NCBI GenBank assembly: GCA_021158225.1
Contig: JAGGUZ010000028.1
Span: 1 to 37,610, forward strand
Length of the DNA stretch: 37,610 nucleotides
Reading direction: 5' to 3'
From: a bacterium
GTDB taxonomy: Bacteria > Patescibacteriota > Gracilibacteria > UBA1369 > PNNO01
This document shows, one piece after another, positions 5,955 to 36,137 of the stretch. The notes under the pieces are model-generated. The model made no database searches. It had not been told where the DNA came from and was given only the letters and a program-made list of their open reading frames with translations. How positions within the stretch are numbered: position 1 is the first letter of the stretch; every line of letters starts with the position of its first letter. The translations under genes were made by a program, and so were the position numbers.

Positions 5955-6260
5955 ATGAACACAGATAGAAACATACAGAAAGTTGCACTTGTTTTCTTTT
6001 TCGCAATTGGAATAATCCACATAATAGCCCATTTAATGCTTATTAATGGATATGCAGTAAATATTTCTTATGCAATAAAAAATATTCTTGAAATACCATT
6101 TATATTAAGTGCGGCAATTTATGGATTCATGAATATTAAAATAAGTTTCATAACTTCGGACAAAGATCATAAAATTGCAAACATAATTATCGTATTGCTA
6201 GTTATTATCCTGCTTGTAGCACTCATTTATTTAAATTTATTTATACCTGACAGAATGTAA
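5955..6260 (+). CDS. Small integral membrane protein (about 3 TM), hypothetical
   Basis: Hydrophobic segments in the 101-aa ORF; TAATG stop/start overlap with the next gene. Confidence 0.65.
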   Translation: MNTDRNIQKVALVFFFAIGIIHIIAHLMLINGYAVNISYAIKNILEIPFILSAAIYGFMNIKISFITSDKDHKIANIIIVLLVIILLVALIYLNLFIPDRM

Positions 6261-6712
6261 TGCCAAATGAAAACGGGAATCTAAAAATTGTTATGGCTTT
6301 CGGAACATTTGACGGTTTTCATGCAGGTCATGAATTTTTTTTAAAACGAGCATGTAAACTTGGGAATCAGTTAATAGTTGTAGTAGCTCGCGACAATACC
6401 GTTAAAAATGTAAAAGGACAATATCCAAGTTTTGATGAAAGACAAAGAATGCAACAAGTTAAAGACAGTCAAATTGCAGATAAAGTAATTCTTGGATACG
6501 ATAATGACAAATACAAAGCAATAAAAAAATACAGACCAAGTATAATCGCCCTTGGCTACGATCAGTTTGTATTTACTTATAAACTAAACAAGATGATAAT
6601 CGATGAGAGTATGGACACGAAAATTATCAGGCTGGATGCGTATGAGCCAGATATATATAAATCTTCTCTAATAAAATTACATAATGAAGAAATTGAAGAA
6701 GAAAAATCATAG
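6260..6712 (+). CDS. Cytidylyl/adenylyltransferase-fold protein (RibL-type FAD synthase / TagD-like)
   Basis: MAFGTFDGFHAGHEFFLKRACKLG (GTFDxxHxGH) and later YKSSLIKL (ISST-like position). Confidence 0.8.
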   Translation: MPNENGNLKIVMAFGTFDGFHAGHEFFLKRACKLGNQLIVVVARDNTVKNVKGQYPSFDERQRMQQVKDSQIADKVILGYDNDKYKAIKKYRPSIIALGYDQFVFTYKLNKMIIDESMDTKIIRLDAYEPDIYKSSLIKLHNEEIEEEKS

Positions 6713-7640
6713 ACATCACGTAAAAAACAATATAACAAGAGCTTTTCGTTTAAGTTTTTCCAATATGTGGAGAAACAAATATCTTACAAGCGCCACTATT
6801 TTGGTTATGGGCATATTGGTTTTTATTTTTAATATCATTTTAAGCGTAAATTATGTTACGCAAGAAGCTTTAACTGATCTAACAAGAAAAGTAGACATAG
6901 TCGCATATTTAAAAGACGACACTCCGTACTACACCGTACAACAGATGATAAAAGAGTTAAAAAATTTAGATGGAGTAGTCGATGCAACATACACATCAAA
7001 AAATGATGCTCTAAAAATTGTTTCGGAGACAAAACCTCAAACTGCGGAATTTTTAAGGAAATACGGTATCAACAATCCACTTCCAGCAAGTATAAACATA
7101 ACAACAAAAAGACCGGAATTACACATAATGATTAAACAATTTTTAAACCAAGAAAAGTACAGACATCTGCTATCAGATACTGTTTCAAAAGACAGTATGC
7201 AGAATAATGCCACAAAAGCCGTTACTGATAATTTAATAAGACTATCAAATGCAACAAATCAAATTGTATTTTGGATTTTTATTATTTTTATAATCGGATC
7301 TGTTTTAATTATCTCCAATTCAATTCTTCTTACAATTTATAACAGACAACGAGAGATTTATATCATGCGACTTGTTGGTGCCACACATGGTTTTATTCAG
7401 CTTCCTTTTATCCTTGAGGGTTTGTTTTATGGGTTTTTCGCTATGATAATAGCAGGACTACTCTTGTGGATTATGGGTAGTCAAATTAATATCACGGAAA
7501 TAAGTATTTCATCTTATTTGGCTTCAATTCCGATAATGAAAATTTTCTTTGTTGAACTTGGAGTATCAATGCTATTTGGCGTTTTGTGCAGTTTTCTTGC
7601 CGTTCATGTTTATCTTAAAAACAAATTAATTCTAAACTGA
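6684..7640 (+). CDS. ftsX: Cell division permease-like protein FtsX
   Basis: N-terminal TM, FtsX extracellular domain (VDIVAYLKDDTPYYTVQQMIKELKNLDGVVDATYTSKNDAL), FtsX-type permease C-terminus (REIYIMRLVGATHGFIQLPFILEGLFYGFFAM). Confidence 0.88.
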   Translation: MKKLKKKNHRHHVKNNITRAFRLSFSNMWRNKYLTSATILVMGILVFIFNIILSVNYVTQEALTDLTRKVDIVAYLKDDTPYYTVQQMIKELKNLDGVVDATYTSKNDALKIVSETKPQTAEFLRKYGINNPLPASINITTKRPELHIMIKQFLNQEKYRHLLSDTVSKDSMQNNATKAVTDNLIRLSNATNQIVFWIFIIFIIGSVLIISNSILLTIYNRQREIYIMRLVGATHGFIQLPFILEGLFYGFFAMIIAGLLLWIMGSQINITEISISSYLASIPIMKIFFVELGVSMLFGVLCSFLAVHVYLKNKLILN

Positions 7641-7644
7641 ATTT

Positions 7645-8259
7645 ATGCGCGTTCAAAAAACTCAAGGTATAATATTACAAATATATCCACGTGGAGAAAA
7701 GGATTATTCGGTAACCGTTTTTAGTCCCACCCTCGGGAGAATAAGGACATATGCGAAAGGAGCAAGAAGAATCGAAAGTAAATTTACCGGACATCTTGAT
7801 CTTTTAAATGTTTGTGATTTTGAATTATACGAAGGTCCGCATTCAACGCTTATTACTCAATGTAATGTTATCGGAAGTTTCCCGAATTTCAGAGAAGAAT
7901 TGTCAAAGTTCTATTTGGCAACGGAAAGTGCAATAATGACGAACAGATGTATTACGGAAAATGAAGATCACATGAGTTCTTATAGATTATTATTGGAGAC
8001 CCTTGAAGCACTCAACACTTTCAATAAAGAAGATCTGATTTTTGAAGCATTTAAAATCAAATTATGTGAAATTCTTGGATTAATGCCAAATTTATATTCA
8101 TTAAATCAAACCGAATTTCATAATTTATCTTTAAGACTTAAAAAAATTCTTAAATTCATGCTCGAAAAACCATACTGCGAAATAGTAAATCTCTCCATTC
8201 CGCAAAAAGACTCAAATAATCTTAAAAAGACTACGGAGCAGTTCTTAGCATTTATATAG
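7645..8259 (+). CDS. recO: DNA repair protein RecO (short form)
   Basis: KTQGIILQIYPRGEKDYSVTVFSPTLGRIRTYAKGARRIESKFTGHLDLLNVCDFELYEG: RecO OB-fold. Confidence 0.85.
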   Translation: MRVQKTQGIILQIYPRGEKDYSVTVFSPTLGRIRTYAKGARRIESKFTGHLDLLNVCDFELYEGPHSTLITQCNVIGSFPNFREELSKFYLATESAIMTNRCITENEDHMSSYRLLLETLEALNTFNKEDLIFEAFKIKLCEILGLMPNLYSLNQTEFHNLSLRLKKILKFMLEKPYCEIVNLSIPQKDSNNLKKTTEQFLAFI

Positions 8260-30003: not shown

Positions 30004-30045
30004 TGATAAGTATGATTGAAATCCCTCTTAATTTTTTTAAATGTT

Positions 30046-31998
30046 ATGAAATCGCTTACACTTACATATATGGTCATCTCTCTTTTGTTGTTATATGGCA
30101 TATTCGCTCAAAGAGTAATGGCCGATCCGGCCACACCGGAACCCAAAATTATATCGTTTCCATCTTTATTAATAACAGAAATCGGGTTTAAAGACAGTAA
30201 GAACGACTTCATTACTCTTCAAGTATTTAACGACATGAACAATGGGAACGGCAACACAATTAAAGGCCTATCGTTAAAAGACGATTCCATTTTTTTTACT
30301 ATTGATGATGACATATATATCAGGAATGGCGAAAAAATCTTCATCTCATTCGGGGAGAATAACGACGAAATCAAAACAACAAACGAAGGACTACAGATTA
30401 ATCTTACTAAAAACGGACTTACGGGAACAACAGAACAACTTATTGTAACAAATAACAATCAAAAGATTATTGATGCCGTATGTTGGGTAAACAGTAAACC
30501 GGCAAAATCCGAAATTACAGACTTTGAATATCTTTTTAATCAATCGGCATGGAAAAATAATGACATTACATCCTGTATAAACAGCGATGGAATCAGCAAA
30601 GATCAGTTAATCCAAAGAAAAAATCCAATAATTGATACAAACAGCAAGGATGATTGGGAAATTAAGATTGTCAATTCCGAAACAATTCAAAACATTAATA
30701 ACAATAGTGATGAAGAAGAAAAAAAAGATGATGATAAAGATCAAGAAACGAATCCAATAAGTAAAATTAAAATTTGTGATGGCGAAGTAATTATTAGTGA
30801 ATTTTTACCTAACCCTCTTGGTAAAGATTCAAATCAAGAATGGATCGAAATTATGAATTCTTCGGGAGCTAATTGCTCCTTATATGGTTGGCAAGTCGAT
30901 GACCGAGAGGGAGGCAGTAAAAAGTACACAATAACTTCGTCGGAAATCATCCCTTCCGGCAAATACTTACTGCTCCCCTCTTGGAAAACCGGCTTAAATC
31001 TTAACAACAGTGAAGACAGCGTCAGAATCTTTAATTATGATGGAGAATTAACAGATAGTATTGCCTATGAAGACGCTCCCGAAAACGAAACTTACGCTCT
31101 AAACAAGGAAACGGACAATTTTACATGGACAATAAAACCGACCCCGCTAACAGAAAATTTGTTCCCGAAAATCCCTGAGTTAAGACCGAAGCCGAAAAAA
31201 AAAGAAGAATCAGAAACTAAACCATCAAGCAAAGTAACAAACGGAACATTGTCCGATCAATTACATATTACCGAAGTTTTCCCAAACCCAAAAGGGCAAG
31301 ATAGCGAACATGAATGGATTGAAATTTTTAATGCTTCCGATAGTGAAATAAAGCTTGGAAATTGGAAACTTAACACAACAAATAAAACTTATAATTTCAA
31401 AAATATTATACTCAAAAGACAAAGTTATTTGATTCTTTCAGACAAAGAATTGGGATTTTCACTTAAAAATACCGATGAGAAATTAACATTAAATGACTTC
31501 AACAATAAAGAAATATCAACAGTAACATATGAAAAAAGTTTTGAATCGCAATCATTTATGGAAATAACAACAATAGACGACGGGACTTCAACTAAATCTT
31601 GGATATGGACAGATAATCCAACCCCGGGAGAAGCAAATTACATTAGATATGTATATAGTGGAACAATAAATACATTTGATGAAACAAGCGGGAAATTACT
31701 CTTGTCCGTAAATAGTGGGCAACCAAATGAAAAAGTATTGGAAATTTTGCTCTTACTTTCAGGTGAAAAACTAATCGATTCAATATTTACAGTCGGATCT
31801 CGTATAAATGTTACCGTAAGAAAAGAAGATGGGAATTTAATATTGGAAAATTATACGCTTCTTGAAGAATCTTCCAAACCGGGGCAAACAACAGAAGGAT
31901 CAAGCGGTCTTTTTTATATACTCATTTCCTCTGTCCCTCCATTGGGACTACTCGGCTATGGGGCAATAAAAAAGTTCGGGTTGATAAAAATTGTCTAA
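30046..31998 (+). CDS. Secreted, C-terminally TM-anchored protein with lamin-tail domains
   Basis: Signal peptide MKSLTLTYMVISLLLLYGIFAQRVMA; VIISEFLPNPLGKDSNQEWIEIMNSSG... and LHITEVFPNPKGQDSEHEWIEIFNASD... (LTD); a divergent N-terminal copy; C-terminal TM. ATG 30046 preferred to TTG 30016. Confidence 0.85.
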   Translation: MKSLTLTYMVISLLLLYGIFAQRVMADPATPEPKIISFPSLLITEIGFKDSKNDFITLQVFNDMNNGNGNTIKGLSLKDDSIFFTIDDDIYIRNGEKIFISFGENNDEIKTTNEGLQINLTKNGLTGTTEQLIVTNNNQKIIDAVCWVNSKPAKSEITDFEYLFNQSAWKNNDITSCINSDGISKDQLIQRKNPIIDTNSKDDWEIKIVNSETIQNINNNSDEEEKKDDDKDQETNPISKIKICDGEVIISEFLPNPLGKDSNQEWIEIMNSSGANCSLYGWQVDDREGGSKKYTITSSEIIPSGKYLLLPSWKTGLNLNNSEDSVRIFNYDGELTDSIAYEDAPENETYALNKETDNFTWTIKPTPLTENLFPKIPELRPKPKKKEESETKPSSKVTNGTLSDQLHITEVFPNPKGQDSEHEWIEIFNASDSEIKLGNWKLNTTNKTYNFKNIILKRQSYLILSDKELGFSLKNTDEKLTLNDFNNKEISTVTYEKSFESQSFMEITTIDDGTSTKSWIWTDNPTPGEANYIRYVYSGTINTFDETSGKLLLSVNSGQPNEKVLEILLLLSGEKLIDSIFTVGSRINVTVRKEDGNLILENYTLLEESSKPGQTTEGSSGLFYILISSVPPLGLLGYGAIKKFGLIKIV

Positions 31999-32054
31999 AA
32001 CACCTTTTATAAAGTATAATGAGCTGTGCAATATTTATTAATCTTTTTCAATAT

Positions 32055-32780
32055 ATGGAATCGAAGAAAGAGAAAAAAGACAATTCATGGCGTACAATCG
32101 GGCTTATATTAATAGGGCTTTTGGTCGGTTATATTAGCGGAAGGTTCGAATTAACAACAATCACTTTTAACAACGATAATAAAACCGTGCGAAATCCTGT
32201 AAAAACGATGGACGATAAATCCGCGGTTACAACTCCATCGAAAAAACCAATTGCAATAAGCGAAGACGACGACCCCTATCTTGGAGATGAAAATACCATT
32301 GTTACAATAATCGATTTCAGCGATTATCAATGTCCATTTTGTAATAAATTTTATAGTAATATTTTACCTCAACTGAAAACCGACTATATAGATACCGGAA
32401 AGGTTAAATATGTATTTCGAGATTTTCCTTTAAACATCCATCCAAAGGCAAAATATGCCCACTACAGTGCAGATTGCGCCCTTGAACAAGGAAAATATTG
32501 GGAGATGCATAACAAACTTTTTGAATCACAATCAGACTGGGAAAAATCGGATGACCTTACGAAAACATTTACAGATTATGCGTCCGAGCTAGGAATGAAT
32601 ACCTCAAACTTTCAAGAATGTCTTGCTTCCGAAAAATATAAAGATGAAGTTAAAAAAGATATAGAAGATGGAATTTCTTATGGGGTAAAAGGTACTCCAA
32701 CTCTTTTTATTAACGGAAAACCAATTAGAGGTGTAAGTAATTATGAATACCTTAAACAAACAATTGAAAAAGCATTATAA
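32055..32780 (+). CDS. DsbA-like thioredoxin-fold thiol oxidoreductase, membrane-anchored
   Basis: N-terminal TM; DFSDYQCPFCNKFYSNILPQL (CPFC), RDFPLNIHPKAKYAHYSADCALEQGKYWEMHNKLFE, GVKGTPTLFINGKPIRG. ATG 32055 preferred since 32019 overlaps TATAAT 32015-32020. Confidence 0.9.
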   Translation: MESKKEKKDNSWRTIGLILIGLLVGYISGRFELTTITFNNDNKTVRNPVKTMDDKSAVTTPSKKPIAISEDDDPYLGDENTIVTIIDFSDYQCPFCNKFYSNILPQLKTDYIDTGKVKYVFRDFPLNIHPKAKYAHYSADCALEQGKYWEMHNKLFESQSDWEKSDDLTKTFTDYASELGMNTSNFQECLASEKYKDEVKKDIEDGISYGVKGTPTLFINGKPIRGVSNYEYLKQTIEKAL

Positions 32781-32788
32781 CCGATAAT

Positions 32789-35002
32789 ATGGAAATACTT
32801 ACCTTGTCCATATCTAAAATGCACTGCGCAACTTGTGCTCAGAAAATAGAAAAAGAACTTTCAAATACGAAAGGTGTTTTAAATTCCGTTGTAAGATTCT
32901 CCAATAAAAAAGCAACTGTTACTTTTGATGAACAAGTAACGAACGAAAAAAAAATAGTTAGAACTATAGAAAAGATTGGCTACAAAGCAGAAATAAATAT
33001 AAGTGAAAATAAAAGACAAAAAAAACGCAAAAAAAGAATACGAATCATTACTTTAAAAATTATAATAGCTACAATTTTTGCCCTAATCACTTTAGCCAGC
33101 CCGTTTTACAAATCACAAATAACCGAGGCATCGCAAGATCTTCTTAATTGGGGACTTTTTATATCTACAATCTTAGTTGTATATATAGGAGCAAAACATG
33201 TACTCGGTGCAACTTTCAACTCTATTAAAAAGTTCAAAATCGATGCGCAAATTTTACAAGGATTCGGGCTTTCCATCCTTGCAATCTACGCATTTGTACT
33301 TATATTAATCCCTTCTCTTAATAATGAACTATCAAGGTTTACGGTTCTAAGCACAATTAATGTTGTATCGATTGTAATACTTATAATTGAATGGATAAGG
33401 CTTTCATACGAAGCCGTTTTTAAAGAAAGCTATGAAACTCTCGTGGGTATACAACCCAAAACAGCGCGCACCATAAGACACGGCACAGAGATGGAACTTG
33501 ATATCGATCAAATTAAAATAGGAGAAACTGTAAAAATTAAAGCCGGAGAAATAATTCCCGTTGATGGAATAATAATCGAAGGAACAACTGAAATTAATGA
33601 AATGATGATAATCGGCGAAATAAATCCGGTCAAAAAATCTGCTGGAGATGAAGTTATTACAGGAACAATGAATGGGAAAGACACAATCGTAATTAAAACT
33701 ACGCAAGTTGGAGAAAACAATACTGTTAACCAACTTATCAATCATATTGGTGAAGCAAAAAAATACCCAGGCTTAAAAGAAAAACGCGCAAATAATATAG
33801 AGAAAATATCCACAATTATTTTGCTGATTTTATCGTTAGGGTTATTTATATTTTGGACACTTTGGGGAGCTCCAATTTTTATTGGAATTTTTAGTGCAGT
33901 TTCATTGTTACTTATATCAAATCCTCAATCATTTAAACAAGGATCAATTATTCCAATCAATTTTACAATAGAAAGACTGGCTCTTAACGGAATTGTTTTT
34001 AAGGGAGGAAGAGCGCTCGAAATAGCAGATAAAGTAAACCACGTAGTTTTTAACAAAACAGGCATATTAACAAATGGTATCCCAGAAATAACAAACGTTG
34101 TTACTAAAAACGCATTCAACGAAAAAAGATTTTTAATCCTTATAGGATCTTTGGAAAACGCTTCAACCCATCCGTTCGGTGAAGCAATCGTGCAGTATGT
34201 GAAAAATCAAAAAATAACAATTAAAAAAGCTTCATCGGTTAAAACAATCGATGGACTTGGAATACTCGGAATCGTTGATGGGGAAGAAATTATTGCCGGG
34301 AACTTAAAACTTATGGAAAAATCTAATGTACAAATGCACGATGAGTTGATTCATAAAGCTGAAATCCTTTCCAAGAATGTAAAAACTCCAATCTACGTTG
34401 CTCGGAACAGAGAACTTGTTGGCATTATTGGAATTGCAGATTCTATAAAAGAATTTTCCAAAGAAGCCATTATGATGTTAAGAAAAGGAAACTACAAATT
34501 AAGTATTATAACCGGTGATAACAAAGCCATCGCCAATCATATAGCGGAAGAAGTAAGGGTTAGAAACGTAATCGCAAATCTTGTTCAACATGAAAAAACA
34601 AAATACATTACTTCCCTTCAAAACAACGATGAAATTGTAGCTTTCGTAGGAAACGGCATTAACGATGCCCCTGTATTAATGCAAGCCGATTTGGGAATAG
34701 CCTCCGGCGTAGGAAATGACATCGACTTGGAAGAATCCGATGTTACTCTTTTAAGCGATAATCTATTACAAGTTGATAAAGCACTCGGCATATCAAAAAA
34801 AATATTACAACAAACAAAGAATAATTTTTATTTCTCATTGCTTTACCATATAACAGCATTTTTGCTTGTCTCCGGAATAGCTTATCCTATATCTAATATT
34901 ATATTACCTCCAATTTTCGCTCCGATTATAATGGGAGCATTCGTATCTTGGATGTTCTATAAAATCGGAAAAATAAAGCAAGAAACTTCATTCAATTTTT
35001 AA
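32789..35002 (+). CDS. P1B-type heavy-metal ATPase homologue, apparently catalytically inactive
   Basis: HMA domain (ISKMHCATCAQKIEKEL), A-domain, HP (ASTHPFGEAIV), TGDN, GIND; but NKTGILT for DKTGTLT, NPQ for CPC, IGEI for TGES, GNGIND for GDGIND. Confidence 0.9.
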   Translation: MEILTLSISKMHCATCAQKIEKELSNTKGVLNSVVRFSNKKATVTFDEQVTNEKKIVRTIEKIGYKAEINISENKRQKKRKKRIRIITLKIIIATIFALITLASPFYKSQITEASQDLLNWGLFISTILVVYIGAKHVLGATFNSIKKFKIDAQILQGFGLSILAIYAFVLILIPSLNNELSRFTVLSTINVVSIVILIIEWIRLSYEAVFKESYETLVGIQPKTARTIRHGTEMELDIDQIKIGETVKIKAGEIIPVDGIIIEGTTEINEMMIIGEINPVKKSAGDEVITGTMNGKDTIVIKTTQVGENNTVNQLINHIGEAKKYPGLKEKRANNIEKISTIILLILSLGLFIFWTLWGAPIFIGIFSAVSLLLISNPQSFKQGSIIPINFTIERLALNGIVFKGGRALEIADKVNHVVFNKTGILTNGIPEITNVVTKNAFNEKRFLILIGSLENASTHPFGEAIVQYVKNQKITIKKASSVKTIDGLGILGIVDGEEIIAGNLKLMEKSNVQMHDELIHKAEILSKNVKTPIYVARNRELVGIIGIADSIKEFSKEAIMMLRKGNYKLSIITGDNKAIANHIAEEVRVRNVIANLVQHEKTKYITSLQNNDEIVAFVGNGINDAPVLMQADLGIASGVGNDIDLEESDVTLLSDNLLQVDKALGISKKILQQTKNNFYFSLLYHITAFLLVSGIAYPISNIILPPIFAPIIMGAFVSWMFYKIGKIKQETSFNF

Positions 35003-35009
35003 AGACTTT

Positions 35010-36137
35010 TCAATTTTTAAGAACTTTTGCGTATTCAAGCTCGTATATGTGAAGAAACGCAAGGAGCAAGTTTAATATAATCGGTCCGTATATTATACCT
35101 TGTAATCCAAACGCCATAATCCCTCCAAATACCGCTAAGAATGTCAGTAATGGATGTACAGGCGCTCGTCCTTCAATAAGATAAGGCCTAATTAAATTAT
35201 CAACCGTGCTTACAACAAGCACTCCCCATAAAAACAATCCAACACCTCCTACATAATTACCGCTGAAGAAAATAATTAATGAAGCGGGTACCCACACAAT
35301 GGCAGTACCAACAAGCGGAACTAAAGAGAATAATCCAGTCGCCGTAGCCCAGAATATTGGATTGTTAAGCCCCACTACAGCATAACCTATACCAGCTAAA
35401 GTCCCTTGGATAACAGCCGTAAAAAATATTCCGAAAATCATTGCCAAGCTAACCTCTTTAAATTTTTTAAAAACAGTTCTCTCATGCTTTTCCGGAAGTG
35501 GACTTAAATCCATAAGTTTTTTTACAAAAACATCTCCATCTTTAAAGAAATAATAAAGTGCAAAGAAAAAGATCATAAACGAAATAATAAACCAGATTAT
35601 ATTTTTTATAAATCCCAAAACGTTATTTAGCTGTTCACGAAGCACATCAACCACTTTTTGAGCGGTAGAGCTTATTTGCCCAACAAAATCAAAATTAACT
35701 TCATTTATATCAAATCCATTGCTATTTACAAAAGGAGCTATCTTCTGAAATTGGTCATACACAAAAGATCCCTCTTGCCATGCCAGTAAATCTTGTACAT
35801 AACCTTCTTCCTGAACTTTGGTTGAAATATTATTGAATGCATCTATTCCTTCGGAAATAAGCAATGTCCCAAATAAACTTAACGGAATAGTTATTACAAG
35901 AAGAGTAAACAAACATGTTAAAAGAGATGCTATTCCTCCCCGTCCACCAAATAATTTTTTAAGTCTGCGAAAAATCGGATAAAAAATAGTGGCAAAAAAG
36001 ATTGCAAAAATAAGTACGGTAAAAAACGGAGTATAAAGCACGTAGACTCCATAAAAAAGTAGCAGAATAATTGCAAGCAAAAACAATCCTGCAAAATTTG
36101 GAACCGTTAAAGATGTTTTACTTTTCAAACTTTTCAA
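35010..36137 (-). CDS. AI-2E family (PerM-like) membrane protein
   Basis: FTVLIFAIFFATIFYPIFRRLKKLFGGRGGIASLLTCLFTLLVITIPLSLF...; GLFSLVPLVGTAIVWVPASLIIFFSGNYVGGVGLFLWGVLVVSTVDNLIRPYLIEGRAPVHPLLTFLAVFGGIMAFGLQGIIYGPI. Start is TTG. Confidence 0.9.
   Translation of the reverse strand: MKSLKSKTSLTVPNFAGLFLLAIILLLFYGVYVLYTPFFTVLIFAIFFATIFYPIFRRLKKLFGGRGGIASLLTCLFTLLVITIPLSLFGTLLISEGIDAFNNISTKVQEEGYVQDLLAWQEGSFVYDQFQKIAPFVNSNGFDINEVNFDFVGQISSTAQKVVDVLREQLNNVLGFIKNIIWFIISFMIFFFALYYFFKDGDVFVKKLMDLSPLPEKHERTVFKKFKEVSLAMIFGIFFTAVIQGTLAGIGYAVVGLNNPIFWATATGLFSLVPLVGTAIVWVPASLIIFFSGNYVGGVGLFLWGVLVVSTVDNLIRPYLIEGRAPVHPLLTFLAVFGGIMAFGLQGIIYGPIILNLLLAFLHIYELEYAKVLKN

Follow-up and report, generated by a model that had tools for sequence, protein, structure and literature searches.

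What remains for a metal pump to do once its transport and catalytic residues have been replaced is the question raised by a 737-codon frame on contig JAGGUZ010000028.1. In such pumps, the first Asp of the GDGxND motif binds the catalytic Mg, and the Glu of the TGE motif drives dephosphorylation. Kinases and phosphatases provide well-known examples of pseudoenzymes, a common role of which is the regulation of an active sibling; to our knowledge, pseudoenzymes are rarely reported for P-type pumps. A preliminary description, made from the letters of the window (the whole stretch of 37,610 nucleotides that was analysed), held that the encoded protein cannot pump, and that the loss of active-site residues from an intact frame argues for repurposing over decay.

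Altered motifs in a P1B-type protein

Inspection of the open reading frame at 32789-35002 on the forward strand, which is also the strand of every part of the protein located below, confirmed that it is uninterrupted, with an ATG start and no internal stop. Pfam recognised an HMA domain (PF00403), an E1-E2_ATPase domain (PF00122) and a HAD hydrolase domain (PF00702) in the 737-aa product. The TIGR01525 profile exceeded its cut-off of 346.25 with a score of 390.5 bits, which makes the protein a descendant of the P1B metal ATPases, while the scores for TIGR01511 (Cu, P1B-1; 318.7 against a cut-off of 397) and TIGR01512 (Cd, taken as the test for P1B-2 Zn/Cd pumps; 259.4 against 313.5) stayed below their cut-offs.

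In this protein, the CPC metal site of the membrane is replaced by NPQ (residues 378-380, 33920-33928), with N378 encoded by AAT (33920) and Q380 by CAA (33926), and GDGIND is replaced by GNGIND (residues 621-626, 34649-34666), with N622 encoded by AAC (34652). Both changes had been read correctly at the outset, as had the absence of the late membrane motifs YN, which is YH at residues 686-687, and MxxSS. The change of the phosphorylated Asp to Asn422, in the motif NKTGILT, is likewise real, although a codon check placed the AAC codon at 34052-34054 and not at 34051-34053 as first given; relatives have GAC or GAT at this position. In ATP7B, the substitution D1027N abolishes the phosphoenzyme (PMC4179477). 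The actuator loop reads IGEI instead of TGES (residues 275-278, 33611-33622); the Thr and the Ser are changed, but the motif had been called lost too readily, because the catalytic Glu, E277, is still present. As described, the protein keeps the HMA site MHCATC within the domain at 32801-32986, the HP motif (461-462), GLGILG (489-494), TGDN (575-578) and a Lys (K603). Its only Cys residues are Cys13 and Cys16 of the HMA domain, and there is none in the membrane. Functional P1B pumps have either CPC in the membrane or a variant of it, such as CPH or SPC, and NPQ is neither. With CPC, the GDG Asp and the phospho-Asp gone, the sequence strongly indicates that the window protein cannot pump, and the preliminary description was almost certainly right on this point.

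Structure prediction, which that description had proposed, yielded a P-type ATPase fold with AlphaFold2 (34 sequences; pLDDT 85.3, pTM 0.75); because the alignment contained canonical pumps, the model is consistent with the fold without proving it. A Foldseek search of the PDB returned ATP7B and CopA, and the best match was the engineered ATP7B C983S/C985S/D1027A (7xuk, 7xun), in which CPC and the phospho-Asp, the same sites as in the window protein, are altered. However, the engineered protein is an artificial trap of a working pump, whereas the changes in the window are natural and evolved across a family. The P1B-1 copper ATPases (A. fulgidus CopA, 3j09; L. pneumophila CopA, 3rfu; and ATP7B) are about 30% identical to the window protein and have in common with it the order HMA-TM-A-TM-P/N/P-TM, the predicted fold, the ATP-site residues of the N domain, HP and the invariant Lys603. 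Unlike them, it is without CPC, YN, MxxSS, the GDG Asp and the phospho-Asp.

Distribution of the family and the course of the losses

A search of 353 genomes of the class found the gene in a single family of Peregrinibacteria, which are tiny, uncultured bacteria; six of the seven genomes of that family have it. In the seventh family genome (79% complete), a DsbA-like gene that is a neighbour in the other six stands at a contig end, which cuts the locus. Of the close homologues, two belong to congeneric species (71 and 66% identity) and three to further genera of the family (about 45-50%). A family HMM was built from the five intact copies and searched against the 353 genomes. These copies scored 1206-1356 bits, and no other P1B exceeded 521. 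The sixth copy, that of G006 (L037:6001-8201), is disrupted twice, by a frame break at about residue 184 and by a TAA at about residue 557, and its main piece scored 811. Phylogenetic analysis of 72 sequences placed the six members in a single clade (support 100), the stem of which, with a length of 1.74, is the longest internal branch. This clade clusters with the canonical P1Bs, with a sister placement that is weakly supported and an exact position that is not firm.

We compared the family with 61 canonical P1B sequences, all of which have the listed motifs because the motifs were the criterion for selecting them. CPC is replaced in all six members (NPQ, NPE, NPT, NTY, NPS and NPE), and both Cys are lost everywhere. 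The GDG Asp is lost in every intact copy (GNG in four, GKG in one), and the broken G006 copy keeps it. MxxSS is gone from the five fully readable members and was not seen in the sixth; YN has become YH in four. Common to all six are K423, T424 and G425, the N-domain residues E456 and H461, and the HMA domain, and the ATP-site residues E456, H461, G489, G491 and G504 of the N domain are invariant across the aligned clade. In G005, the HMA domain has lost one Cys (MHTAAC), and metal binding by CxxC is therefore not clade-wide.

The Asp-to-Asn change, which had been presented as the main feature of the protein, turned out to be specific to one species. All five relatives keep DKTG, even though four of them have lost the GDG Asp, and the AAC codon of the window differs from the GAC of G002 by a single G-to-A change. 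The actuator Glu, for its part, is kept only in the window (E277, in IGE) and is lost in the five relatives. Thus, the losses form a mosaic and not the one selective set that had been described, and the full set of Post-Albers residues occurs in no family member. Nor are they limited to active-site residues, as had been supposed: 140 positions are shared by 90% or more of the 61 canonical P1Bs, and the window protein retains 73 of these, divided into 6 of 7 in the HMA domain, 40 of 53 in the P and N domains, 15 of 26 in the A domain and 12 of 54 in the membrane helices, where 42 are gone. The ancient events that mark the whole family are the disappearance of CPC and of the residues of the membrane site, together with that of GDG in the five intact copies. 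Since the Asp is kept in five relatives and CPC is lost in all six members, the loss of the Asp in the window is the youngest step, and the natural loss was graded, with the metal path going first, the Mg site next and the phospho-Asp last, in one species.

Selection and inverted conservation

Frames are open in five of the six genomes at 29-57% protein divergence. Omega was about 0.02-0.03 for the clade by ML and 0.10 for the closest pair by NG86, similar to neighbouring genes; synonymous sites (dS) are saturated, and these two methods are the only sources of the values. A pseudogene, with a disrupted frame or neutral evolution, was rejected because the frame is open and omega is far below 1; only the G006 copy is disrupted. 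Relatives with intact DKTGT and CPC and a neutral dN/dS had been named in the preliminary description as the mark of simple decay, and of these, only the Asp was found.

For a comparison by domain, we took 191 canonical P1B pairs from the same order, matched for overall identity. Across genera, the N domain (residues 433-545, 34085-34423), which is better conserved in the clade than any other part of the protein, was 64-75% identical versus 27-42% in canonical pairs, and the HMA domain 47-59% versus 24-47%. In contrast, identity was 28-37% versus 46-69% in TM3-4 and 25-36% versus 50-72% in TM5-6. The clade and canonical ranges do not overlap except for a touching edge in the HMA domain; the pairs are not independent, and the clade-wide statistics are based on five intact sequences. 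Within the genus, the values were 80-81% versus 43-66% for the N domain, 74-79% versus 39-73% for the HMA domain and 53-55% versus 73-91% for TM5-6, with TM3-4 at the low edge of the canonical range (63-66% versus 63-88%). When pumps have diverged to the same extent, the N domain ranks with their more variable parts (about 35% identity) and TM5-6 is the most constant (about 60%), whereas the corresponding figures for the pseudo-pump clade are 69% and 28%; the same pattern was obtained with 1083 canonical pairs, a larger set. Unlike those of pumps, then, the membrane helices of the pseudo-pump evolve fast and its N domain slowly. We read this as a new, strong constraint on the N and HMA domains, with the transport helices released from theirs. 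The inverted conservation points to the N domain as the bearer of the new job, and the comparison of N-domain with membrane-helix conservation may offer a simple test for finding other dead pumps.

Gene conversion was rejected as the source of the N-domain conservation, because fourfold-degenerate sites are about as diverged or saturated there as elsewhere. Similarly, we found no relaxed selection after the loss of the Asp: relative-rate counts for the window versus G002 were 79:60 (chi2 2.6), which do not differ, and lineage-specific changes numbered 9:8 in the N domain and 11:11 in P2, with no speed-up. The Asp of the window protein is thus gone without visible loosening of constraint, which suggests that its function probably needs no phosphoenzyme. 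Purifying selection, the open frames and the pattern of conservation together bear out the earlier view that the protein was repurposed.

Genomic context and candidate roles

Gene order is the same in all six loci: RNase Y (-), LTD (+), DsbA-like (+), pseudo-pump (+) and AI-2E transporter (-). In the window, the LTD gene (30016-31998, +) encodes an exported protein with two lamin-tail domains by Pfam and, in the family alignment, two invariant Cys pairs. The DsbA-like gene (32019-32780, +), directly upstream of the pseudo-pump in six of six loci, encodes a membrane-anchored thioredoxin (Thioredoxin_4 in Pfam) with the active site CPFC, and 8 bp separate its stop from the pseudo-pump start. The suggested link to the upstream redox protein thus holds, as an operon with the DsbA-like gene. 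The convergent gene for an AI-2E family transporter (35010-36137, -) is probably outside the unit. A sigma-70 scan gave no more promoter-like matches than shuffled sequences, and terminator-like matches were within the shuffle range. In other families, the LTD and AI-2E genes flank nothing, a DsbA-like gene, or CcdA-like and DsbA-like genes, and never a P1B; the pseudo-pump is a family-specific addition to the DsbA/LTD cluster. The LTD protein is a likely disulfide client of its DsbA-like neighbour. In such bacteria, DsbA proteins are usually oxidised by VKOR, which occurs in most genomes of the family (the window genome and five others) and can serve the DsbA-like protein.

In another Peregrinibacteria family (L185, L182, L180 and L181), a CcdA/DsbD-like membrane gene lies inside the LTD-DsbA cluster; this is probably a thiol system dedicated to the LTD surface protein. 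The CcdA-like gene product of such clusters in other Peregrinibacteria families (G022, G033, G046 and G055) is, like the pseudo-pump, an accessory membrane protein of a DsbA-like protein, but the CcdA/DsbD-type conduit is unrelated to the window protein, which without membrane Cys cannot form a CcdA-type electron relay. A thiol conduit replacing CcdA was rejected as a direct mechanism because the only Cys residues are the two in the HMA domain. In G005 (L036:5256-5996 and 6001-8178), the DsbA active site has changed from CPFC to CPFS alongside the change of MHCATC to MHTAAC in the HMA domain; this joint loss of Cys, a single co-occurrence, hints at a DsbA-HMA link.

Besides the pseudo-pump, the window genome (99% complete) encodes a single P-type ATPase, which belongs to the P2 type and has intact motifs; neither a canonical P1B nor a second HMA domain was found in this genome. 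Similarly, no canonical P1B match was found in G001, G002, G003 and G005, where the pseudo-pump is the only HMA protein. G006, alone in the family, has canonical CopA- and CopB-like genes (L186), and the gene broken there is apparently dispensable, at least where canonical P1Bs exist. A role as regulatory subunit of a canonical P1B paralogue is unlikely in a genome that has none, and the same applies to the earlier idea of a partner of a canonical pump.

We propose, at a probability of roughly 60%, that the protein is a non-transporting, membrane-anchored, metal- and ATP-responsive docking or sensor protein for the adjacent DsbA/LTD pathway. A P1B metal ATPase would have joined the LTD-DsbA operon in the family ancestor and ceased to pump; its membrane helices would have become a plain anchor, and its cytosolic HMA domain (with CxxC serving for metal or thiol) and N domain would have come under a new, stronger constraint, the surface of the N domain contacting a cytosolic partner. 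The protein may then report metal or nucleotide status to the exported DsbA/LTD surface-protein pathway, or anchor it. From the retained binding residues, we infer that ATP is bound at the N domain and metal at the HMA domain. The cytosolic partner and the coupling to DsbA/LTD are speculative; the DsbA-like domain is probably extracytoplasmic and the HMA and N domains cytosolic, so that a direct contact is not obvious. A more definite version, a membrane receptor acting with DsbA/LTD in ultra-small bacteria without a canonical P1B pump, in which the HMA domain is the metal or thiol input, the strictly conserved and ancestrally ATP-binding N domain the head for a ligand or partner and the helices the anchor, is tentative, with the odds somewhat against it. 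For minimal bacteria without a canonical P1B, the protein would be a candidate way of using an HMA domain without pumping.

It is possible that only the CxxC of the HMA domain matters, and that the protein is a membrane-tethered Cu(I) buffer which binds or senses stray copper in genomes without a canonical P1B. Its place as the sole HMA protein in the window genome, G001, G002, G003 and G005, the broken copy beside CopA- and CopB-like pumps in G006, and an HMA conservation above that of canonical P1Bs all fit a buffer. Yet this account leaves a conservation of the N domain greater than that of the HMA domain, as well as the retained 737-aa polytopic body, without explanation, and G005 is without one of the two Cys, which makes it unlikely in our judgement. 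Less probable again is a protein that is still an enzyme and lost this activity only in the window, either as a pump for a non-metal substrate or as an aspartyl-phosphate switch stuck without its actuator Glu. The DKTG Asp of all five relatives and the invariant ATP-site residues would be expected of an enzyme, and the loss of the Glu in these relatives fits a switch. However, of the five relatives with DKTG, four have N or K in place of the GDG Asp; conservation is lowest in the helices that set substrate specificity (25-37%), the reverse of what pumps show; and no relaxation followed the loss of the Asp in the window.

Asn422 itself might be an assembly or sequencing error in one genome, in a protein otherwise like its relatives, as a single GAC-to-AAC transition relative to G002, present only once, would allow. 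We give this little chance, as the frame shows no other fault and the remaining losses, common to the family, were found in independent assemblies; the wider conclusion stands without N422. Simple decay of a pump no longer needed, seen at a stage when the frame is still whole, could point to the frame break and stop in G006 and to the many canonical positions lost. Against it are five open frames at the divergence given above, the low omega, N and HMA domains conserved beyond those of working pumps, and the kept gene order; these sequence comparisons largely refute decay for the clade, and we attach only the slightest probability to it. The docking or sensor reading is the one that we retain.

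The fold and the family of the protein are known; what is probably new is the use other than as a pump and the natural change of the phospho-Asp to Asn. No bacterial pseudo-P-type ATPase was found in the literature searched, which is weak evidence of absence. The nearest reported parallel that we found is the degenerate P4-ATPase-like domain of Plasmodium GC-beta, an apicomplexan guanylate cyclase, which is reported to have lost most signature residues and is yet part of a functional protein (PMC6592433). That domain is of the eukaryotic P4 type and fused to a cyclase, whereas the window protein is bacterial, of P1B type and not part of a fusion, and has an HMA domain.

A scan of contigs for the pattern F[DN]KTGILT found two further P1B-like proteins with FNKTGILT, both in unrelated bacteria, which suggests that dead P1Bs may arise repeatedly. 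One, in a Thiogranum MAG (L070:5707-7830, +), has SPQ for CPC, TGEK and GDSDRD, with no HMA domain seen; it groups with the CopB-like L120 in the tree and would be an independent dead P1B. The other, in a Micrococcales MAG (L087:5686-7593, +), is very divergent and has an open frame, with QVA for CPC and ADGHYD for GDGxND. A P1B-like protein of a Bacteroides MAG (L089, ORF near 6001-8106) has CPC and DKTG intact, with TGES changed to NGDK, GDGIND changed to GSGIGD and a degenerate HMA Cys pair.
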